Under the pieces are notes generated by a model. That model saw only the letters and a program-made list of their open reading frames with translations. It searched no databases and was not told the DNA's origin. This document shows, piece by piece, positions 4,198 through 38,015 of a DNA stretch of 63,696 nt (positions within the stretch are counted from its first letter, which is position 1; each line of letters starts with the position of its first letter). A program made the translations under genes and the position numbers. Source of the DNA: Candidatus Woesearchaeota archaeon (GTDB lineage: Archaea > Nanobdellota > Nanobdellia > Woesearchaeales > GW2011-AR4); assembly GCA_018303655.1 (NCBI GenBank), contig JAGVXT010000011.1, positions 1 to 63,696 on the forward strand, read 5' to 3'.

Positions 4198-5844
4198 TTA
4201 TCTAACATATAATGTGCCCGATTGACCCCAGCTCGTACCCGCCGTGTCGCAGCCGTTTAATGAGGGGTGCCCATAGATCAACCGGTCAGCTGGGGTTGCT
4301 GTTCCATCGGCTAGGGCCTTGATACTCCCCTGTGAGATTTGTGCCGTACCATAACCGACTGGAGGATAGGTGTACGCCTCAGCCGTACAGGCGCCACTGG
4401 CGTCCGTTGTCGCGGCGAAAGTACAACTGGTTTGGAAATACCCTATGACCGATGCGCAGGTCAAGCGATAGGCCGGACTTGCTCCGAGCTTGATCTGGTT
4501 GATCGTCGTGTCGGAATACTTCCCCTTCCCGGTCGGGCTCGTTAGGCTTCCGGAAGTTACGGCGGCCGTATTGACGTGATTCGCATTGGCTTCAATGCCA
4601 ACAACCAAAGTCCAGCCTCCATCCTGGTTGATCATATCGCAGTATGCTTGGAACGCATTATTCGTGTTCCCGTCGTTATCGGGGTCAATCCAATATATGC
4701 CGCTGCCGGTTGAAAGACCATCGTCCAAAATCTTCTTACAAGTTCTGCCTGCGTCTGTTTGGCTTGTTCCCCCCTCGCCCCCAGCGATCTTGGTCCATGT
4801 CGTACCGGTGCATCCCTGAAAGGCCGTCCCTGTCCAACGAATCGTGCCCGCTTTCGACGCGTCGCATGCGCTCATATCGTTCGCTACCTTAACCCCGCCG
4901 CTGACATCCAGCTTGGCCGCGGGGCTCGCCGTCCCGATGCCGACGTTGCCTACCTTTCCGGATTCCCGAGAAATGGTCATAGCAAGAGTCCTTGCACCAG
5001 CAACTACAGAATAAATATTTAATTCGCCTCGCAATTTTTGCTCGTGGTCAAAATCAAAACCATAATCAAGCGCAGTCGCTGACTTTATATTCAAAAATGG
5101 TTTTACAGTTGTATCGTTGGAAATAATGTTAACTGTCCCAGCAGTTCCAGAAGGAGCGAAGTTCGGTCCAACATTTATGTTACCTACAACTTGTAATTTA
5201 TTATTTGGAGATGTCGTCCCGATGCCGACGTTGCCTACTGTTGTTATTCTCACTTTTTCCGCCCCGCTTGTCCAAAAAGTAAGCGGAACATAAGAACCTG
5301 CACCAACATAATCAGCTCTAACCTGCGCAACCGATGAACCGTAATTAAGATAAACTCCATTTGTTGCACTTCCAAATATCGACTCACCATTAACATGTAA
5401 TTTGAGCAATGGCCCCGCCGTCCCGATGCCGACATTACCGCTAGCATCAATTATGAGCCTACTTATACCAGCTGTTTTATCGTATATTGAGAATTTTCCA
5501 ACGCCAATGCCGCCTGCAGAGCCTGCTGATACCAATGCATACTCTTTTCCACCACCTTCTGTGTTTTTTAGGCTTAAAAAAACCTCATTATTATTTTGCA
5601 GTTCGGTATTGCTTCCTCCCACTGACACATCACCTGCGTGTACAAGAACAGGCATGATTAAGATTAGGGCTACCGCTAGGCTAATCCTTAAAATTGAGGC
5701 AAAGAAGCTTGAAATGGATTTTTCAGTCAGTTGTGAGCGAGTTCGCAGTGAGTTGCGAGAGCTCTCCTCTCGCTCGCTCATTTCCCAGCTCACTCGCATT
5801 CGACTATTCTTTTCTTTTTTGTTTGTTATATTTGTTTTTTCCAT
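4198..5844 (-). CDS. secreted surface protein with tail-fibre-like GNVGIGT repeats and C-terminal fibrinogen-like domain
   Basis: Signal-like segment ISLAVALILIMPVLVHAG; repeated NVGIGTxSP..KL.V.G; GSGIYWIDPDNDGNTNNAFQAYCDMINQDGGWTLVV. Confidence 0.8.
   Translation of the reverse strand: MEKTNITNKKEKNSRMRVSWEMSEREESSRNSLRTRSQLTEKSISSFFASILRISLAVALILIMPVLVHAGDVSVGGSNTELQNNNEVFLSLKNTEGGGKEYALVSAGSAGGIGVGKFSIYDKTAGISRLIIDASGNVGIGTAGPLLKLHVNGESIFGSATNGVYLNYGSSVAQVRADYVGAGSYVPLTFWTSGAEKVRITTVGNVGIGTTSPNNKLQVVGNINVGPNFAPSGTAGTVNIISNDTTVKPFLNIKSATALDYGFDFDHEQKLRGELNIYSVVAGARTLAMTISRESGKVGNVGIGTASPAAKLDVSGGVKVANDMSACDASKAGTIRWTGTAFQGCTGTTWTKIAGGEGGTSQTDAGRTCKKILDDGLSTGSGIYWIDPDNDGNTNNAFQAYCDMINQDGGWTLVVGIEANANHVNTAAVTSGSLTSPTGKGKYSDTTINQIKLGASPAYRLTCASVIGYFQTSCTFAATTDASGACTAEAYTYPPVGYGTAQISQGSIKALADGTATPADRLIYGHPSLNGCDTAGTSWGQSGTLYVR
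5717..5808 (+). repeat. palindromic GC-rich repeat family, copy b (inside CDS)
   Basis: CAGTCAGTTGTGAGCGAGTTCGC...CAGCTCACTCGCATTCGACT, ends shared with copy c. Confidence 0.75.
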
Positions 5845-26791: not shown

Positions 26792-29065
26792 CTACTTTTT
26801 TAGTGCGATTACAGCAAAAATATAGCATATAGCGCCTGTTATTAAGGCTGCATTGAAGCCCCAAATCAGCGACACTATCATGGACAGCACTCCGCCAAAT
26901 GTTGATGCAATCCCGTTTATGCCCCACATCCATGGAACCCACCTGTTTGAAAACTTTCCAACTCTCTCCAAACCAAATGGAAAAAACATTCCCATGAAGA
27001 AAGAGGGTAATGCAATAAATACAATTGACAATAATATTTTGAATGGCAAGCTAAAATGAGAAAACTTGGCGAAGATGTAAACCAAAAATGGTATGTAAAG
27101 CGCCATTATAACCACCAAAATCGCCGCTGCGCAATAAACCAAAAATTTAGATTTGTTGTAAAGCTTTGAAGCAAAATAGCTGCCAATTCCGCTAAAAAGC
27201 AGTATTGTGGACAATACAACAGAGAGCGCATAAACGGGGTTTTCTACAAAAATAGTAAATTTGTGAATGAGCACCAGTTCTATCATAATAAAACCAACAC
27301 CTATAAAAAAGAAATAAAACAGGTATTTTAATAAATCACTTCTATACTCATTTTTGTATAATAAAAAAGGAACTGCAAAAGCCACAATCAATGCTGCGGC
27401 TATTATAAAAAACAATATAAAAAGATATTTGATGGAAATAAATTGCATATTTTTAAATGTCAAATCGGTATCTTGGTTTACATTATAATCTTGACTATAA
27501 ACAGAATAAGTATTCCAGTAGAAGGGATGATTGTCTGTAATGTCTATTCTATTTAATTTAAATTTCCTTAAATTCTCAGGTCTCAAAAGCAAGGTTGTTA
27601 ACCCGATTTTTTGTGAATTCTCATTTATTTTTTTGATTTCTTCATCAGTAAATTCAATTTTTTTGAAGATTACTAATGAATATTTATCCCCTTTTACCAA
27701 TATCACGTTATTTTTGAATCCTATTCCCAGTTTATCCATCACCAAAACCCAGTTTTCCATATATCGCATAATGAACCAGTTTATATCTGCCACAGCAAAC
27801 AATCCATCTTCATCAAGGTGGTCAAAATACGATTTCAAAGCTTCTTTAGTGTAAAGATAGTTCTCCAGAAATGCGTAAGATGACAATCCTGCACCACCAT
27901 ACCTTTTAGAACTAGATAGGTATATTAAATCGTATTTATCTGGTGATTTTAAAAGAAAACTTCTCGCTTCTTCTATTGAAAGTTTAACGGAATTGTGATT
28001 ATAAATATTTAGCGAGCGATTGTCTTTCGCCAATTCTTGGGCCCTGTTTATTATCAAAGGGTTTATCTCCACTGCCGTTACTTTGCCATTCCCGGCATGG
28101 ACAGACATAACAACTTCCAAACCGGCGCCAGAGCCAATAATGAGAGAATTTGTATAGTTTTTTATAGTGTAAGGGAGATACTTTAAGGATCCTTCAAGAA
28201 ATTCCATTTTTTTTGGTTTGAACTCAACAAAAGTAGTTGTACCTATGCAATCAATCTTCATTTCATAAATATTTACATCCTGCGGTAATTGCCCAAACCC
28301 TGTACTAAAGTAGGGTATACCATGCTGCAGTTGATATGTATCAATTTGTGAAAAAGAGTTTGTCTCAGAAAATATTGGCTTTGTTTGATTTGGGCACACT
28401 ATGCTGAATGCCGGCAGAAAATAAGATAGTGCCACCAAAAATGCTATAAAGAGTCCAGCCAAGAACAATAAATATTTTGCATCTGGTTTTTTATCAAAAT
28501 TAATTAACAATAGGGGCAGAAATGAAAGAGCAAATACCAATATGATTGTTTTTTCCATACCAAAAATATCAAGCAAAAATATTGCAAGAAAAACCCCAAT
28601 CGCAGACCCGGCCATGCTAAAAAAATAGATTAAGTGGATTCTTTTAACATAAACTGTGAAGATTATGCCTGCGCAAACGCCCCAAACTAAATAAACAAAA
28701 AAAGTCAAAGTGAAAAACAAAATTTTGGCCAGAAGTTGGGAATTGATTAGGTAGTGCAAAGCAAAAAAAGGCGTTAAAAGCAGGAATAGATATAAGATTA
28801 TAGAAATTTGGAGTGTCTTGTCATAATTATTTCTTGATATGAGTGATTCATAAAAAAAATAAACAAATATACCGCCTAAACCTATGCTGAGAATTGCTGA
28901 AGATATCAGTATAAACTGGAAATCACTCCCAAACGAGACTTTAGAAACTCGCGTGAACATTATTTCTAGCATTAGCAGGGAAACAGATAGTAAAAAAAGC
29001 GCAAATCCTGAAAAGTATACACTGAATTTTTTCCCTTTGCCGAGATTATACCTTTTGTTTAGCAA
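26792..29065 (-). CDS. membrane-fused spermidine-synthase-like protein
   Basis: Multi-TM N- and C-terminal parts flank SLIIGSGAGLEVVMSVHAGNGKVTAVEINPLII. Confidence 0.8.
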   Translation of the reverse strand: MLNKRYNLGKGKKFSVYFSGFALFLLSVSLLMLEIMFTRVSKVSFGSDFQFILISSAILSIGLGGIFVYFFYESLISRNNYDKTLQISIILYLFLLLTPFFALHYLINSQLLAKILFFTLTFFVYLVWGVCAGIIFTVYVKRIHLIYFFSMAGSAIGVFLAIFLLDIFGMEKTIILVFALSFLPLLLINFDKKPDAKYLLFLAGLFIAFLVALSYFLPAFSIVCPNQTKPIFSETNSFSQIDTYQLQHGIPYFSTGFGQLPQDVNIYEMKIDCIGTTTFVEFKPKKMEFLEGSLKYLPYTIKNYTNSLIIGSGAGLEVVMSVHAGNGKVTAVEINPLIINRAQELAKDNRSLNIYNHNSVKLSIEEARSFLLKSPDKYDLIYLSSSKRYGGAGLSSYAFLENYLYTKEALKSYFDHLDEDGLFAVADINWFIMRYMENWVLVMDKLGIGFKNNVILVKGDKYSLVIFKKIEFTDEEIKKINENSQKIGLTTLLLRPENLRKFKLNRIDITDNHPFYWNTYSVYSQDYNVNQDTDLTFKNMQFISIKYLFILFFIIAAALIVAFAVPFLLYKNEYRSDLLKYLFYFFFIGVGFIMIELVLIHKFTIFVENPVYALSVVLSTILLFSGIGSYFASKLYNKSKFLVYCAAAILVVIMALYIPFLVYIFAKFSHFSLPFKILLSIVFIALPSFFMGMFFPFGLERVGKFSNRWVPWMWGINGIASTFGGVLSMIVSLIWGFNAALITGAICYIFAVIALKK

Positions 29066-29086
29066 AATAATCTTTCCTCATCTCAT

Positions 29087-29710
29087 TCAAATGGTTTTAT
29101 TCATAATACACGCTTTTTTTTGAGAAAATAATAAATTCTTTGGGTTCAATTCCATAGCTTTATTAAAGTTTATTTTTGCAGCATTAAAATCTTTTATTTT
29201 GCATTGTAATTGTGCAAGCTTATAATAAAGATGCGAATTACTTGGATCTAAGTCTATAGCTTTATTAAGATATAAGATTGCATCTGTATTCTGATTTCTC
29301 CTTGCAAAACATAACCCCAGATAGGTGTATATTTCTGAACTAGGTTTGTTGTTCAATAAGTATTCATTAAATAATTCAATAGATTTATCATAGTCATTTT
29401 CTCTGCATAAAATATCTGCTTCCAAAATCAATTTAGAAATTTCTGATTTGACACTAATGCTTCTGATTATATAAAAAAATAAAACAATAAGTACCAAAAT
29501 TGCAAAAAAAGAGGATATAAATACAATTTTATTTTTATTTTTCGAAAGATGTTTTATGTGATTGTCTACTTTTTCTGGATGCCAACCAGATTTGACAAGA
29601 ACCATCCTTATTTCTTCTAAACTATGCCCTCTATCAACCTCCCTTTTTATATAACTCAAAAGTTTTTCATCGAGTATTGTAAAATTTCTAAAATTATCTT
29701 TATTGTCCAC
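29087..29710 (-). CDS. TPR-repeat membrane protein
   Basis: AILYLNKAIDLDPSNSHLYYKLAQLQCKIKDFNAAKINFNKAMELNPKN. Confidence 0.75.
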   Translation of the reverse strand: MDNKDNFRNFTILDEKLLSYIKREVDRGHSLEEIRMVLVKSGWHPEKVDNHIKHLSKNKNKIVFISSFFAILVLIVLFFYIIRSISVKSEISKLILEADILCRENDYDKSIELFNEYLLNNKPSSEIYTYLGLCFARRNQNTDAILYLNKAIDLDPSNSHLYYKLAQLQCKIKDFNAAKINFNKAMELNPKNLLFSQKKACIMNKTI

Positions 29711-30422: not shown

Positions 30423-30860
30423 TTACTTCCTTGCTTTTTCTATCCTTCCCTTCAATAAAGCATCAAGGCTTTGGTCATTTACCTTTATGACCTGCCATCT
30501 GACTCCGGGAATGTCGCCTTTGCTTTTGCCCATTGCGCCTCCGATGCACTCTATGATTACTTCATCGTGCTCGTCAATCATCTTTGTTGCGCCGTCTCTA
30601 GGGCAGAAAGCCGTTACTTGCTTGCCATTTTTTATAAGCTGAACCCTGACGCATTTTCTCATACCGGAGTTCGGCTGCTTTGCCTCTAATTGCACTTTTT
30701 CCAAGACAATTCCCCGTGCCTGTGAAGCGCCTCCCAATGGGTCAGAGCGTTCCTTTAATCTCAATATTCTTTGTATATATGGCCTATAGTGCCATCTGCC
30801 ATCGCTTCTTCTTGATTTCAGCTTCTTGCCTGCATTCAACCCGCGTGATTTATTTGACAT
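30423..30860 (-). CDS. rps12: ribosomal protein S12
   Basis: [38 protein letters not shown]. Confidence 0.97.
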
Positions 30861-31048
30861 ATTAGCTTGGTATTTTTAAGCGATTTTTAAAGGTTTGTAT
30901 GACAAGGCTTTGTGTTATCCATAAATTAAAAGGCAATAGAGTTATTTATAAAATACAAAAGTTTGGGGTTACGCACAGATTAATAAAGAGCAAAGATTTA
31001 AATAAATATAATCCTTACTATAGAGTAGTTATGGAATAAGGTGGAATA

Positions 31049-32014
31049 ATGCAAATAGAACCTTTTGAAAAATTAGTCCAACAAGCAACTGAAGAACTGT
31101 ACAGAAAACATCCTTGGTTAAGAAGAAAAATGATAAGAATTAAAGATGAAACTGTAGTCGAATATAGTGACGCCCAGTATTATCAATATATTTTACCGCG
31201 ATACCTATTCGAAGGCGTTGAAGACACAGAAAAATTGGAGGAGTGGTTTTTAGCTGAGACAAATAGCGGCTCACAAAAATTTAAAAGGGTATTGGAACTT
31301 GCATGTGGAAATGGAAGAGGCACACGTATAGTTGCCAAATATGCAAACGAACTGGATGCTGTAGATCTAAGCCCTTCGATGATAAGTAGCGCTCAAACTG
31401 TAAAGAATCTTACTAATGTTCGGTTTTATCGAGGAGATATGTTTGAATTTACCAATAAATTAGCTCGTGAAAATAGACTCCATGAGTATGATTTAATTTT
31501 TTCATTTTGGGGAATATTTTATGGTACAAATGACGAATTCATAACAGTAGACCAGCATGGAAATTTATTGGCTTTAGACCCACAAAGCGCTACCCAAAAA
31601 GCAGAAAGAAATCTAAGAACACTTTTTGACAATTTAACTCAAGGTACACAATTTTTATTCTTTCATGTAAGAAGTGATACTGAAGAACAGCTGATATATA
31701 GGCCAATTATAGGGGCTTATTGCAGTGCATTTATGCCACCAAGACCTACACCAAGCGAAATTATATTGAAAAAAGTTTTAGACAGTAGCGGAGTAGACTA
31801 TCAATGGAGAAATGTAGGTGGTTTTGTTGAGTATCCTTCTTTAGAAAAGGCTCTTGAAGTTAACTTGAATTTCCATTTAAAGGGATTCTTTAATGACAGA
31901 CTGGAATTGCCAATCATTTATCTTATCATAAGCAATGGACTACACCGTCACATACAAGAACAAAAAGTTAAAATGAGTGCTGGTTATATACATATAGAAG
32001 GGGTAAAAAGATGA
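31049..32014 (+). CDS. class I SAM-dependent methyltransferase
   Basis: VLELACGNGRGTRIVAKYANELDAVDLSPSMI. Confidence 0.85.
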   Translation: MQIEPFEKLVQQATEELYRKHPWLRRKMIRIKDETVVEYSDAQYYQYILPRYLFEGVEDTEKLEEWFLAETNSGSQKFKRVLELACGNGRGTRIVAKYANELDAVDLSPSMISSAQTVKNLTNVRFYRGDMFEFTNKLARENRLHEYDLIFSFWGIFYGTNDEFITVDQHGNLLALDPQSATQKAERNLRTLFDNLTQGTQFLFFHVRSDTEEQLIYRPIIGAYCSAFMPPRPTPSEIILKKVLDSSGVDYQWRNVGGFVEYPSLEKALEVNLNFHLKGFFNDRLELPIIYLIISNGLHRHIQEQKVKMSAGYIHIEGVKR

Positions 32015-33615
32015 TAGACAAAGAAGTAGTGGATTTGTTTGGAGCAAGCGATTCTTTGAATGTTTCACAAATAGTGGAATATTTGAACATGCTTAGTAAA
32101 TACATATCTCCATTGCTCGGCAAGGGACCATTAACAAAGAAAAAACCTGTAGAGTCAGATAATATATTTGATCACTACCCCAGATCACTGGATCAAGTGT
32201 TCTCAGGCCTCTCAGTATATTTTACGGATTTAGTAAATTGGAGATCGCCTAGAACTCACTTTAATATAACTCCGCCCGTGTGTAATCCTGCAATCGCAGC
32301 AGCAGCTTTAGCACATGTGATGAACCAAACCTTAGTTTCTGATATGGGTTCAGGCAATCTCTCACAGCTAGAATTAGATATCGTAAAATGTTTTGGTGAA
32401 TTGGCAGGCTGGGATAGCAATTCTCCATCAGGAGTATTTACTTTTGGTGGTACTGGAACAAATATATATGGTGTTAAAATAGGTATAAATAAAGCAGATA
32501 GGCATACATCTGAAAGAGGAGTTCATAATGTAGTTACAGTCGATAGTGACCAGTGTCATTCATCACATAGAACTATTGCTGACTGGTTGGGAGTTGGAAT
32601 AAATAACAATATTCAAATACGAGCAGACGAAAGTGGAAGACTTAGAGCAACTGATATAATTAGTACTTTAGATGCATTAATTAAACAAAGCAAAGTTATT
32701 GGATGTGTTACATTAAGCGGAGGAACAACGTACGATTGGAGCATAGATCCTATTAAAGAAGTGAAAGAAGGCATAACAGAATTAGTTGCACGTCATAAGC
32801 TACAATATACTCCACACATACATACTGACGCAGTTATAGGCTGGGTTTATTTATTCTTTAAAAATTATAACTTTGATGCTAATCCATTAAGAATTTCTGA
32901 GAGAACTTTGACTAAAGTAAGGCAAGCCCGTGATAGAATTATTGAACTACGGTATGCAGATTCATTCGGTATAGATTTCCACAAAACAGGATTTTGCCCT
33001 ATAACATCCAGCCTTTTCATGCTTAGAAATAAGGATGATTGGAAAGTTTTAGGAAAAGGTACAGAACATGCTCATCATCAAGCATTTCAATTGGGGAGTT
33101 ATTCTCCTGGTAAGTATACCCTAGAAACATCACGAAGTACAGTAGGTCCTGTCACAACATATGTAACTTTAGCAGCATTGGGTATATCAGGTTACCAAAA
33201 AATAATTGCTGGCCTCGTGGAAGGTGCAGAGGATATGAGAATGCGCATAGAAAGTTCTGAAGGATTTTATAATTGCAACCCTTATGCCTTAGGATGGTGC
33301 ACAATGTTTTTAGTTAGAGATAATAACTCAAAAATTACCATGGAAGACCTATTAACTCATGCACCAGAACACATCACAAAAAAGAGTAATCAACTTCAAA
33401 AAGAGTTTCAGAAATATTTACGGTCTTTATGTTCTGAAAATGGTGGATGGCACATTAGTTGTTCGAATGATTACAAGAAAAGTGCAAGTGGCATAAGCAT
33501 TTCAACATTAAAACTATACCCAATGTCACCATTGTTACAAATTGGAGATAACAGAAATTTAATGGACTGGTTGGAACAAAGAAGAGAAGAATTTCTAGGT
33601 AGGAAAAATGCATAA
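32011..33615 (+). CDS. group II PLP-dependent amino acid decarboxylase-like protein
   Basis: GVFTFGGTGTNIYGVKIG, IHTDAVIGWVY, SFGIDFHKTGFCPITSSLFML; overlaps upstream gene (ATGA). Confidence 0.85.
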   Translation: MIDKEVVDLFGASDSLNVSQIVEYLNMLSKYISPLLGKGPLTKKKPVESDNIFDHYPRSLDQVFSGLSVYFTDLVNWRSPRTHFNITPPVCNPAIAAAALAHVMNQTLVSDMGSGNLSQLELDIVKCFGELAGWDSNSPSGVFTFGGTGTNIYGVKIGINKADRHTSERGVHNVVTVDSDQCHSSHRTIADWLGVGINNNIQIRADESGRLRATDIISTLDALIKQSKVIGCVTLSGGTTYDWSIDPIKEVKEGITELVARHKLQYTPHIHTDAVIGWVYLFFKNYNFDANPLRISERTLTKVRQARDRIIELRYADSFGIDFHKTGFCPITSSLFMLRNKDDWKVLGKGTEHAHHQAFQLGSYSPGKYTLETSRSTVGPVTTYVTLAALGISGYQKIIAGLVEGAEDMRMRIESSEGFYNCNPYALGWCTMFLVRDNNSKITMEDLLTHAPEHITKKSNQLQKEFQKYLRSLCSENGGWHISCSNDYKKSASGISISTLKLYPMSPLLQIGDNRNLMDWLEQRREEFLGRKNA

Positions 33616-33627
33616 ACAAATAATAAT

Positions 33628-34443
33628 ATGATTAACAAACAAGCTGTAGAAAGTTTGGAGGAAAAACTTTCGCCAGAATTTAAAGGGTTAATGGGAAGAT
33701 TACAAGCCGAACAAAAAATAGTTGCAGCACTCTTATGTGGTTCACGTTCCCAAGGCACAGCTAGAAGTTATTCTGATTTTGATATATTCCTCATTACAAA
33801 CGGATACAATAAAGGAAATGTGCAGGTTGTTCATTATAAAGTTGGTCAAAAAAGGTTGGATGTTATGCTATATGAATATGGAACTATACTTAGAGAAAAC
33901 GAATTTGATGTGAGATTATTAAGTGTTCTTTTAAGAAATGCTTTGCCTCTATTTTCTCGAAATGAACGTCTGGTAGAGCAGTTAGGAAAATATATTAGGA
34001 ATACGCTTCATCATCAAACAGGTGAGCTCGAAAGACAGTCTATTTGGTATAACTTTATTTGGAATACTGGCAAGGCAAAATCTTATCAAAGTTCAAATCC
34101 AGAATTAGCTGAAGCCATTGTAATGGAGACATACTACTTCATTGGATTGTTTTATGCAAAACTTCATGGACAGGAGATATATAGCTTTGCTGAGAGTTTA
34201 AACTTTATGCAACAAATGAGCCCCAACTTTTGGAGAAAGTATAAGTCGGCATTAACACAACAAGATAGAATTAAAGCCGTGACAAATCTACTTCGAGAAT
34301 TACCTAGTGCTGATTTTTATTTGTCGCACAGTTCCTATGTTGAACTTGATAGTTTTATTAGTCCTTTAACCGTAGTCCCACCTTCATCGGACAGACATAT
34401 TGCATTTCAAAAATCCATGGACAGATTGATATTAGGATTATAA
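33628..34443 (+). CDS. DNA polymerase beta-fold nucleotidyltransferase with helical C-terminal domain
   Basis: LLCGSRSQGTARSYSDFDIFLI (GS..G/S..DxD motif). Confidence 0.8.
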   Translation: MINKQAVESLEEKLSPEFKGLMGRLQAEQKIVAALLCGSRSQGTARSYSDFDIFLITNGYNKGNVQVVHYKVGQKRLDVMLYEYGTILRENEFDVRLLSVLLRNALPLFSRNERLVEQLGKYIRNTLHHQTGELERQSIWYNFIWNTGKAKSYQSSNPELAEAIVMETYYFIGLFYAKLHGQEIYSFAESLNFMQQMSPNFWRKYKSALTQQDRIKAVTNLLRELPSADFYLSHSSYVELDSFISPLTVVPPSSDRHIAFQKSMDRLILGL

Positions 34444-34479
34444 ATGTCCTATAAATAAGTAAAAATTTTAGTCTTAAAA

Positions 34480-35214
34480 ATGAATCCAGATCAATTAGAA
34501 ATAGTATGTTGGGATGAAAAGTGGAAAGACCTACTAGGTAGAAGAGATGTGTCAAATTTTACCGATCCTGATAACATAAGGTATTACAGAGCATTTAATG
34601 GAGTAGTCAATAAAGTAACAGGGCCTGCTTATTCGGCATGTGAATTTGGATGTGGTAGCGGGACTCATCTTATTTACGCGCGAGATTTATTTGAGAGACT
34701 TTATTTTGTTGATGGCAGTCCAAATGCATTGTTGTATGCCGAATTTTTGTTAAGTATGCCAGGAGGATCAAAAAAAGGTTCATTTATAAAAGATAATGTG
34801 TTAGATTCTAAACTTGAGTCAGATTTATTTTATTTTACATTTAATTCCGGCGTCATAGAGCATTATTCAGAAGAAGATATCTTTAGAATTCTTCAAAATA
34901 TGCGAAGGGTTTCAAAACCAGGAGGAAAGGTACTGGTAGCTTGGCCGAATTTGTTGAGTATTGCTTCTGTATATCTAAGACTTACTGGCCATAGTCTTAC
35001 AACTGAAAGATATTATAGACCGAAAAAAATTAGAAATATAACATTAGAAGCAGGACTCTCAGGCATACAATCATACAATTTCCCTATTGTATGGCCGCCT
35101 GGATTTAGTCAGAATTTCTATGCAAGAACTTCTGGAATAGAAAGAATGCTAGCTAATATGGGTATGGGATTTTTACATATTTTATCAGCTGAAAAGGTAG
35201 GTCGTACAAAATAA
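34480..35214 (+). CDS. class I SAM-dependent methyltransferase
   Basis: ACEFGCGSGTHLIYARDLFERLYFVDGSPNAL. Confidence 0.85.
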   Translation: MNPDQLEIVCWDEKWKDLLGRRDVSNFTDPDNIRYYRAFNGVVNKVTGPAYSACEFGCGSGTHLIYARDLFERLYFVDGSPNALLYAEFLLSMPGGSKKGSFIKDNVLDSKLESDLFYFTFNSGVIEHYSEEDIFRILQNMRRVSKPGGKVLVAWPNLLSIASVYLRLTGHSLTTERYYRPKKIRNITLEAGLSGIQSYNFPIVWPPGFSQNFYARTSGIERMLANMGMGFLHILSAEKVGRTK

Positions 35215-35227
35215 TCTATTAACTAAA

Positions 35228-35953
35228 ATGGAGAGTTCAAAAGACGCAGTAGGACAATTATTGATTGCACATTACCGAGGATTTGAAAGTTATGAGATTT
35301 TAGAAAGAGAAGACGGTGTTATAGGCTTGTCCGAAGGTCCTGCAAGATACTTTCTTGATTATAGTCAGTGGCCTGAAAACGAGAAACAAGCCATAAAACA
35401 TGCGAAAGGAAAAATTCTCGATGTAGGATGTGGTAGTGGAAGATTTTTGTCATATTTGCGAAAAAATGGATTTAATGTATTGGGGATTGATAATTCTCCT
35501 TTAGCAGTAGAAGTATGTAGACTTAGGGGATTAAAAGCGAAAGTTCTGGATTTGTTTGACATTGATAAACTTGATGAGAAATTTGATACTATATTAATGA
35601 TGTGGAATAACTTTGGTTTATTTGGAAGTAGAGATAGAGTGAAAAATGGTTTAGATTTATTTTACAGAATGACAAATGAAAGCTCTGTTATCATAGCTGA
35701 CAGTACCGATCCACACACAACTAATGAAGAAATCCATAAAGAATATCATAAATTAAATATTATGAAAGGGAGGATGTCAGGTCAACTAAGAATTCGAGTG
35801 AGATTTAAACAATATGCTTCAAACTGGTTTGATTATTTGTTAGTATCGGAACAGGAGATGAGAGAGGTAATAGACGGAACAGGATGGAGATTAGGCACTG
35901 TTTACAGGTGTAATTCATCATCTTATATTGCAATATTGGAAAAAATATGTTAA
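35228..35953 (+). CDS. class I SAM-dependent methyltransferase
   Basis: ILDVGCGSGRFLSYLRKNGFNVLGIDNSPLAVEVC. Confidence 0.88.
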   Translation: MESSKDAVGQLLIAHYRGFESYEILEREDGVIGLSEGPARYFLDYSQWPENEKQAIKHAKGKILDVGCGSGRFLSYLRKNGFNVLGIDNSPLAVEVCRLRGLKAKVLDLFDIDKLDEKFDTILMMWNNFGLFGSRDRVKNGLDLFYRMTNESSVIIADSTDPHTTNEEIHKEYHKLNIMKGRMSGQLRIRVRFKQYASNWFDYLLVSEQEMREVIDGTGWRLGTVYRCNSSSYIAILEKIC

Positions 35954-35997
35954 AGGTGTAAAAATTAAAAGCATAAGTAGTAATTAGATTATCCAAA

Positions 35998-36642
35998 ATG
36001 ATAGAAGCTGTTATATTTGATATGGATGGAGTAATTATAGACACTGAGTCTTTCTCAGAATCGGTAGAGTTACCCTTCTTAAAGTCTAGGGCATTGGAAT
36101 GGAAAGAAGGTTACGAAAATCAGATCAGAGGTTCATCTCCTGAAAATGTTTACAATTTCTTAAAAACACATGGTGGTGTAAAAGCAGAATTAAGAGAATT
36201 TCTGACACAATATTGGTTACTGAGTGAGGATGTGTATAATAATCAAGTTTCTTTGACAAATGGCTTCCATGAAACAGTTCAAAATTTAAGAGCGAATAAT
36301 CTAAAAATAGCTTTAGCGTCATCGACACCAAGAAAGTTTGTTGATATTGTTGTAAACAGATTTAGTCTTAGTCCATACTTTGAAGTTATAATGAGTGGAG
36401 ACAACATATTACATCCAAAACCACACCCAGAAATATATTTAGTAACTATGCAAAAAATGGGAATTACTGCACCTAATGCAGTTGCTGTTGAGGATTCCTA
36501 CAATGGATTTTTGTCAGCAAAAAGAGCCTGCTTAAAAGGTATAGGATTAAAAACAAACTATAATAAATCTCATTTGTATTTAAGTGATACAACAATAAGT
36601 GACCTTCGTGAATTAACATTAGACAAGCTTCTTACATTATAG
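35998..36642 (+). CDS. HAD hydrolase, beta-phosphoglucomutase-like
   Basis: EAVIFDMDGVIIDTES; KIALASSTPRK; AVEDSYNGFLSAKRA. Confidence 0.9.
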   Translation: MIEAVIFDMDGVIIDTESFSESVELPFLKSRALEWKEGYENQIRGSSPENVYNFLKTHGGVKAELREFLTQYWLLSEDVYNNQVSLTNGFHETVQNLRANNLKIALASSTPRKFVDIVVNRFSLSPYFEVIMSGDNILHPKPHPEIYLVTMQKMGITAPNAVAVEDSYNGFLSAKRACLKGIGLKTNYNKSHLYLSDTTISDLRELTLDKLLTL

Positions 36643-36697
36643 ACAAATTTTCATCGTAAAAATAAAATGAAAAAGTTTTTAACCTTATAGGGATTGT

Positions 36698-37546
36698 ATG
36701 TTAAATATGAAGATTAGAATACTAGGTTCTGGAGCTTGGGAAGGGATTCCTGCGCCATTTTGCAAATGTAAAGTATGTGAATTAGCAAAAGAATATCCTA
36801 ATTCAAAAGATCATAGGACCAGACCCGAGATTTTGGTTGAGGGTGATAAAGGAAAATTTCTGATAGAAATAAGTCCAGATATTCGATTACAATCTGCCAA
36901 ATTTAATTTACCTGCAATTAGGAATTTTCTTATAAGCCATTGGCATTTTGACCATATGTACGGACTTATGGACTTGCATGCATGGTCAGAATTAGTCTTG
37001 AGGAGAAAAATTTGTCTTCATTGTTCCAAAGATACATCTAAATGGTTGAATAAAAACTTTAATCATATCAGCAAAAAGATAATAATCCACAAACCATTTG
37101 AATCATTTAGTTTGTACGGTATTATAATCACCGCTATACCAGTCTACCATATGTATACAAAAGATAAGAATTTAAAGGAAGATGAATTAAATAGTACTTT
37201 TGGGTATATTTTAGAAAAAAATAAAAAAAAAGTAGTTTTTCTGCCCGATTATTATAAGTTACCAGCCAAATCTTTAAAATTATGTACAAATGCGGATTTA
37301 CTCATTGTTGATGGAACTTTTTTATTTTCTGAATCTTTTCCTAAGAAATTTTTTCAAAAAATGATATTAACTGATAAAGACCATTTACATGGAAAGGATA
37401 TTTTTGCTTTAATTAAATTACTTAAACCTAAAAAGACCGTTTTTCACAGCATATCACATTTAACCGAAAAATCACATGAGAAATTACAAAATAAGTTACC
37501 TAAAAGTATTATTGTCTCATATGATGGTATAGAATTTGTTTTTTGA
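36698..37546 (+). CDS. PhnP-like metallo-beta-lactamase-fold phosphodiesterase
   Basis: ILGSGAWEGIPAPFCKCKVCELAKEYPNSKDHRTRPE; ISHWHFDHMYGL; CxCxxC. Confidence 0.85.
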   Translation: MLNMKIRILGSGAWEGIPAPFCKCKVCELAKEYPNSKDHRTRPEILVEGDKGKFLIEISPDIRLQSAKFNLPAIRNFLISHWHFDHMYGLMDLHAWSELVLRRKICLHCSKDTSKWLNKNFNHISKKIIIHKPFESFSLYGIIITAIPVYHMYTKDKNLKEDELNSTFGYILEKNKKKVVFLPDYYKLPAKSLKLCTNADLLIVDGTFLFSESFPKKFFQKMILTDKDHLHGKDIFALIKLLKPKKTVFHSISHLTEKSHEKLQNKLPKSIIVSYDGIEFVF

Positions 37547-37601
37547 ATATCATATCTTTAAACCCTAATAACAATTTCTAATATTTATTTAATTTTAAAA
37601 A

Positions 37602-38015
37602 TCACTCCACTTTTATCTCCTTGATATCAAAATGTCTTCTTACAATGCCGCTTAAGTGGTTTATATTCTTCCTTTCCCTTCCTATGAGCATTGCCCTTGC
37701 ATGGGTGTCTTTTGCATGTATTATTATGCCTTCATTTTCCTGCCTTACATCAAGGATTTCCGCAGGGTAAACAATATTCTTCACAAACTGCAGGACATCA
37801 CTGCTGAACTCAACAAGCTTTACCTTCTTTCTCAGCTTGTTTTCCATTCTCTTTATGTTGGCGCCGTTTTTACCGATGGCTTTGCCCATGTCATTTTCCC
37901 CGATTATGAATATAATCTTTTCATTGGTAATGCAGTCCTTTACTTTTGCGCCCGTCATGGACTCAAAAAGCGTTATCAGCTTCATTGAATCAGAATCATA
38001 CTTGAGCTTGCTCAC
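37602..38015 (-). CDS. nusA: NusA-like KH-domain transcription factor
   Basis: FIIGENDMGKAIGKNGANIKRMENKLRKKVKLVEFS. Confidence 0.92.
   Translation of the reverse strand: MSKLKYDSDSMKLITLFESMTGAKVKDCITNEKIIFIIGENDMGKAIGKNGANIKRMENKLRKKVKLVEFSSDVLQFVKNIVYPAEILDVRQENEGIIIHAKDTHARAMLIGRERKNINHLSGIVRRHFDIKEIKVE

Follow-up and report, generated by a model that had tools for sequence, protein, structure and literature searches.

The window analysed here, a stretch of 63,696 nucleotides from a Candidatus Woesearchaeota archaeon, carries seven genes between the ribosomal protein gene rps12 and nusA. Sequence comparison with relatives indicates that this block is a real and recent insertion, probably gained after the split from the nearest sampled relative. 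The genes encode, in order, an S-adenosylmethionine (SAM) methyltransferase-fold enzyme (MT1), a pyridoxal phosphate (PLP)-dependent decarboxylase, a nucleotidyltransferase (NT), two further methyltransferases (MT2 and MT3), a HAD phosphatase and a PhnP-like metallo-β-lactamase (MBL): ordinary enzyme families in an undescribed combination. With a probability of about 0.5, we interpret the block as a horizontally acquired small-molecule operon that has the decarboxylase and NT as its core, with methyltransferases decorating the product and the HAD phosphatase and the MBL possibly trimming phosphates. As far as the genomes compared can indicate, conservation backs the decarboxylase–NT gene pair only.

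Insertion between rps12 and nusA

The block is flanked by rps12 (30423–30860, minus strand) and by the gene for a NusA-like KH protein (37602–38015, minus strand), on contig C7 of a 1.26 Mb genome assembled in 37 contigs and 88% complete. The inserted segment of about 6.7 kb (30905–37601, no strand assigned) is delimited by homology to relatives, which stops on the left after GATTTTTAAAGG and resumes on the right at the nusA stop codon, with borders accurate to about 10–20 bp. A search with NusA found the protein in 38 of 39 genomes, one of the 38 giving only a weak match. The nusA–rps12 spacer measures 42–64 bp in 16 of the 17 same-genus genomes with a readable locus and 389 bp in the remaining one (G004). 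The nearest relative by NusA (G005, 86% identical) has an empty site with a spacer of 54 bp. The usual archaeal contiguity of nusA, rps12 and rps7, on which the original prediction relied, was confirmed in these relatives. Horizontal gain is likewise supported by the empty sites in near relatives and by the lack of a close homologue of MT1, NT and MBL in the genus. The description of the block as mobile found no support: the open reading frames, tRNAs and repeats were inspected, and neither an integrase or transposase nor a tRNA or a convincing repeat at the borders came to light. The 389 bp spacer of G004 (L098, 1905–2295), which occupies the same site as the insertion, is AT-rich, has no evident gene and includes short stretches that are repeated or inverted.

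All seven genes are on the plus strand and begin with ATG, at the positions originally given. The spacing was also reproduced, with a 4 nt ATGA overlap between the MT1 and decarboxylase genes, successive gaps of 12, 36, 13 and 44 nt and finally 55 nt before the MBL gene. The AT bias noted for these genes is clear from the G+C content at third codon positions (GC3), which is 0.216–0.261 compared with a median of 0.416 in the 48 other open reading frames of the window (Mann–Whitney p = 1.5e-7). Under the window's own codon table their codon choice is otherwise ordinary (z of −2.4 to +0.75). Common low GC3 and operon spacing across all seven genes favour a single operon. Low GC3 alone is no proof of foreign origin, since a host-side gene at 29087–29710 has a value as low as the inserted genes.

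A weak candidate for an archaeal TATA-like box that would serve the operon (gatttaaataaatataatcc, 30995–31014, plus strand), AT-rich and picked out by eye, lies about 35–50 nt before the first ATG. Outside the insertion, the TATA-like box of rps12 (30881–30892, minus strand) is a ATTTTTAAA-type motif that is kept in the spacers of relatives. Scans for bacterial promoters and terminators gave a signal no higher than shuffled sequences, and an Rfam search returned no match. Elsewhere in the window, the low-GC region downstream of rps7 (26792–29710) holds a TPR gene (GC3 of 0.22) and a gene for a 757-residue membrane protein with a spermine-synthase-like domain, which may be further recent gains. 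An open reading frame at 4198–5844 has a GC content of 0.49, and its codon choice is strongly atypical (z of −8.7).

The decarboxylase and its nucleotidyltransferase-like neighbours

The second gene (32011–33615, plus strand) encodes a group II PLP-dependent decarboxylase that matches PF00282 with 66.2 bits against a gathering score of 27 (E = 3e-18). The catalytic residues are intact: Lys325 (the PLP lysine), Asp273 (the PLP-binding aspartate) and His183 (the stacking histidine) are invariant across 26 decarboxylases. The AlphaFold2 model (predicted local distance difference test, pLDDT, of 81) aligns with group II enzymes, among them GAD67 and CSAD, at an E of about 1e-25. The protein shares the fold (template-modelling scores of 0.71–0.78 on the query) and the lysine, aspartate and histidine with GAD67, CSAD, the Sphaerobacter decarboxylase and diaminobutyrate decarboxylase, but it is only 16–18% identical to these enzymes, has an HTDAVIGW-type motif and falls into a clade of its own with archaeal, Clostridium and Daviesbacteria members. 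Because every NCBIfam equivalog cut-off was missed by far, the substrate cannot be read from the fold and the catalytic residues.

A single-sequence query of the genome collection with the decarboxylase gave no match; a three-row alignment retrieved 207 stretches. At E <= 1e-30 the enzyme was detected in 6 of 371 genomes of the phylum. In the decarboxylase tree, which has long branches, the window's sequence and that of G224, a genome from another family of the same order, are sisters (support of 100/99) inside a 12-row group that also includes the related loci described below. No conserved neighbour surrounds the gene in the Planctomycetes/Poribacteria branch of the family, and no relative of the decarboxylase, NT, MT1 or MT3 was found on viral contigs.

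The third gene (33628–34443, plus strand) encodes a Pol-β-type nucleotidyltransferase with a predicted helical C-terminal part. The characteristic GS...DxD motif is present (GSRSQGT..SDFDIF; GSRSQGTARSYSDFDIF), and the protein gives weak matches to NTP_transf_2 (PF01909; 22.2 bits, cut-off 21) and to Polbeta (24.5 bits, cut-off 26.9; E = 3e-5). The motif and the predicted helical C-terminal region are shared with Pol-β small-molecule nucleotidyltransferases and MntA-like MNT domains (PF01909 and PF18765), whereas NT has no sequence match to any solved structure, lies far under the MntA cut-off and is tied to a decarboxylase.

This tie is conserved. G224 carries the nearest decarboxylase (43% identity) followed by an overlapping NT homologue (39%), and in the 353 genomes of the order NT occurs only twice, in the window's genome and in G224, both times directly after the decarboxylase. 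Among 147 genomes searched, NT had one short, weak match outside its own genome, and plasmids yielded no relative of it.

In related loci, the decarboxylase gene has other nucleotidyltransferase-like genes in its vicinity. In G087/L067 and in G208 the decarboxylase gene lies between metG on its upstream side and, downstream, a member of family A3, which is unrelated to NT and carries a GG/GT...DxD motif; A3 is present in two of 330 genomes of the class, both times directly after the decarboxylase. In a Clostridium metagenome-assembled genome, an NTP_transf_2 gene and a phosphodiesterase gene lie upstream of the decarboxylase gene, and in Daviesbacteria a gene with a GG/GT...DxD-type motif follows it. 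When applied to A3 and the Daviesbacteria gene, the term nucleotidyltransferase-like refers to motifs read by eye; such motifs occur in 2% of comparable background genes. Families A2 and A3, both nucleotidyltransferase-like, have no profile similarity to each other. Taken together, the gene neighbourhoods suggest that unrelated nucleotidyltransferase-like genes recur beside or near related decarboxylases in other Woesearchaeota, a further DPANN lineage, Clostridium and Daviesbacteria. The pairing is recurrent and yet not universal, because the decarboxylase loci of G016, where a radical SAM gene lies upstream, and of Bathyarchaeota have no such neighbour.

Two further arrangements were observed around decarboxylases of this type. 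The order metG, decarboxylase, A3-family gene is the same in two distant DPANN genomes (L086, 6873–11128, and L138, 6930–11161), and a link of these loci to translation is conceivable. In the same-genus genome G016 (L085, 7777–11969) a related decarboxylase gene has a radical SAM/SPASM gene on one side and, on the other, a gene of 499 codons without a Pfam match, the product of which resembles, by eye, a phosphoribosyltransferase–kinase fusion.

Methyltransferases, HAD phosphatase and metallo-β-lactamase

MT1 (31049–32014, plus strand; Methyltransf_31, 1e-9) is a class I SAM methyltransferase-fold enzyme, MT2 (34480–35214, plus strand; Methyltransf_25, 2e-10) a class I SAM methyltransferase and MT3 (35228–35953, plus strand; PDB entry 9khp, 6e-36) another, which is nearest to actinobacterial enzymes. 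Among 147 genomes, one short, weak match to MT1 was found outside its own genome, and phages held no relative of it. For MT2 and MT3, all matches are to other methyltransferases and mostly cover the SAM-binding region. Relatives of all three are encoded on plasmids: that of MT1 in an Exiguobacterium ThiF-AAA-MFS-MT cluster, that of MT2 in Bradyrhizobium beside genes for a HAD hydrolase, an S66 peptidase and a class II synthetase-like protein, and those of MT3 in Streptomyces (37% identity) beside YcaO, TfuA, cupin, carbamoyltransferase and MFS genes, and also in an adenylation/carrier-protein cluster. These natural-product-like surroundings suggest, circumstantially, a role in specialised metabolism. 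A Pfam scan identified no core family of nonribosomal peptide synthetases, polyketide synthases or ribosomally synthesized and post-translationally modified peptides among the seven genes, and a literature search found no mention of the PDB codes for relatives of MT3 or of the combination of families.

The plasmid loci have features of their own. On Bradyrhizobium nodulation plasmids (L181, 1965–5750) the S66 peptidase, class II synthetase-like, HAD and methyltransferase genes are consecutive, a row that is possibly an aminoacyl-nucleotide-type cluster. The YcaO, TfuA, cupin, methyltransferase, carbamoyltransferase and MFS genes are kept on both Streptomyces plasmids (L143 and L144), which likely represents an uncharacterised natural-product cluster.

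The sixth gene (35998–36642, plus strand; HAD_2, 7e-30) encodes a HAD-IA phosphatase of the HxpB/β-PGM-like type with a score of 116 bits, short of the 191 bits required for HxpB. Generic HAD proteins are common among the genomes searched, and no conserved linkage of this gene to others of the set was found. The last gene (36698–37546, plus strand; Lactamase_B_2, 2.5e-20) encodes the PhnP-like MBL, for which 11 of 38 genomes gave weak matches (best 1.5e-14). Its metal-site motifs HxHxDH and CxCxxC are present as SHWHFDH and CKCKVC. In these motifs and in fold it is like PhnP, the cyclic phosphodiesterase of the C–P lyase pathway (PDB entry 3g1p, 5e-13), but it lies far below the PhnP equivalog cut-off (80.7 bits compared with 272.25 for TIGR03307) and no C–P lyase gene was recognised among the neighbours scanned. 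One PhnP-like MBL is encoded near the decarboxylase homologue of G208, on the opposite strand. The HAD and MBL genes are assigned to the operon through strand and composition only.

Proposed pathway and alternatives

In the proposed operon the decarboxylase would convert an amino acid, or an amino-acid conjugate, to an amine, and NT would transfer a nucleotide onto this product or onto a partner of it. Up to three methyltransferase-fold enzymes could methylate the product before or after nucleotidylation, and trimming of phosphate-containing intermediates might fall to the HAD enzyme and the PhnP-like phosphodiesterase. Cleavage of a cyclic phosphate or a role in immunity, as put forward for the latter in the original prediction, would be speculative. 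We infer a single shared pathway, along with its order of steps, its type of substrate and product and the participation of the HAD and MBL enzymes. The small-molecule pathway of the original prediction is retained in part: the decarboxylase–nucleotidyltransferase unit recurs elsewhere, while the joint action of all seven genes found no such backing.

Several observations weigh against this interpretation. The seven-gene set was found in no second genome and at none of the other loci examined, and in G224 the decarboxylase–NT pair stands alone, without methyltransferases. The structure model of NT is poor (pLDDT of 50.5, no usable fold match), so its fold assignment rests on motifs and weak Pfam matches. 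The methyltransferase contexts are only circumstantial, because the relatives are distant (28–37% identity) and the collection, which is rich in such clusters, was searched with no control methyltransferase. A search of the window's genome (G000, 88% complete) for a SAM synthetase of the archaeal type (PF01941), which did not extend to the bacterial-type MetK, gave no match, although the genome carries several SAM enzymes.

It is rather unlikely, although the conservation of the decarboxylase–NT pair alone would fit, that only this pair, perhaps with MT1, is functional and that MT2, MT3, HAD and MBL are unrelated genes that accreted at a tolerant intergenic site. The methyltransferases and the HAD phosphatase belong to generic families with scattered relatives, and the MBL gene is the most AT-rich and follows the widest gap; however, the seven genes share one strand, tight spacing, equal GC3 and a single insertion site, and the PhnP-like MBL of G208 is again near a decarboxylase–nucleotidyltransferase-like pair. 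Instead of being a free metabolite, the nucleotide-activated methylated amine could serve as a headgroup or glycan substituent of the envelope or another polymer. Activation by nucleotidyl transfer is common in envelope chemistry, and the decarboxylase operon of G087/L067 also encodes a methyltransferase, a PHP enzyme and a glycosyltransferase of family 2, but the insertion contains no glycosyltransferase, flippase or lipid gene, and activators of sugars or choline are usually not Pol-β-type enzymes; we consider such a role improbable. An assembly artefact, for which the fragmented state of the genome might speak, or a defence or toxin–antitoxin locus in which NT would act as an MntA-like antitoxin, is highly improbable. 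A chimera would need two joins, because ancestral order and orientation are kept at both flanks. NT does weakly match MntA and PADLOC PDC-S09 (2.5e-6), but membership of the MntA/HEPN type VII system was rejected, as NT reaches 19.9 bits against a cut-off of 60 and no HEPN partner or family was recognised among the neighbours scanned; matches to mad2 span the generic SAM domain only.

A nucleotide-conjugate inhibitor that works like microcin C was also considered. NT would add the nucleotide, and MT1 and the decarboxylase would add an aminopropyl group through aminocarboxypropyl transfer from SAM and subsequent decarboxylation; the roles and chemistry of MccD and MccE in aminopropylation have been reviewed (PMC10491745). 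The operon resembles the mccB-mccC-mccD-mccE cluster in having a nucleotidyl-transferring enzyme and overlapping genes for a methyltransferase-fold protein and a PLP decarboxylase, as mccD and mccE overlap. In addition, the ThiF protein encoded in the cluster of the MT1 relative is related to MccB, and the MT2 relative lies alongside a class II synthetase-like gene and a gene of the S66 peptidase family, which is annotated at the mccF position. However, MT1 has no BLASTP or phmmer match to MccD, and MccE is a fold-type III enzyme (PF02784, Orn_Arg_deC_N), unlike the PF00282 decarboxylase of the window, so the operon is no member of the microcin C family. Nor was a ThiF gene (the MccB adenylyltransferase), an exporter, an immunity peptidase or a precursor gene recognised in the insertion. 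By analogy, a similar mode of action would be a minor possibility and a very unlikely one.

On the interpretation as a small-molecule operon, the decarboxylase–nucleotidyltransferase pairing might even mark an undescribed class of amine–nucleotide metabolites in DPANN archaea and some bacteria, with unrelated nucleotidyltransferase families repeatedly recruited to one decarboxylase lineage. Here, the added methyltransferases would yield a nucleotide-conjugate inhibitor or signal acting on the host or on neighbours. We regard this scenario as a whole as improbable. Small-genome DPANN archaea are generally regarded as poor in biosynthesis. The presence in one of their genomes of a compact, recently acquired operon of decarboxylase, nucleotidyltransferase and methyltransferase enzymes suggests that certain members of the group produce specialised small molecules. 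The decarboxylase–nucleotidyltransferase pair, being recurrent, provides a two-enzyme handle that is open to work in vitro.

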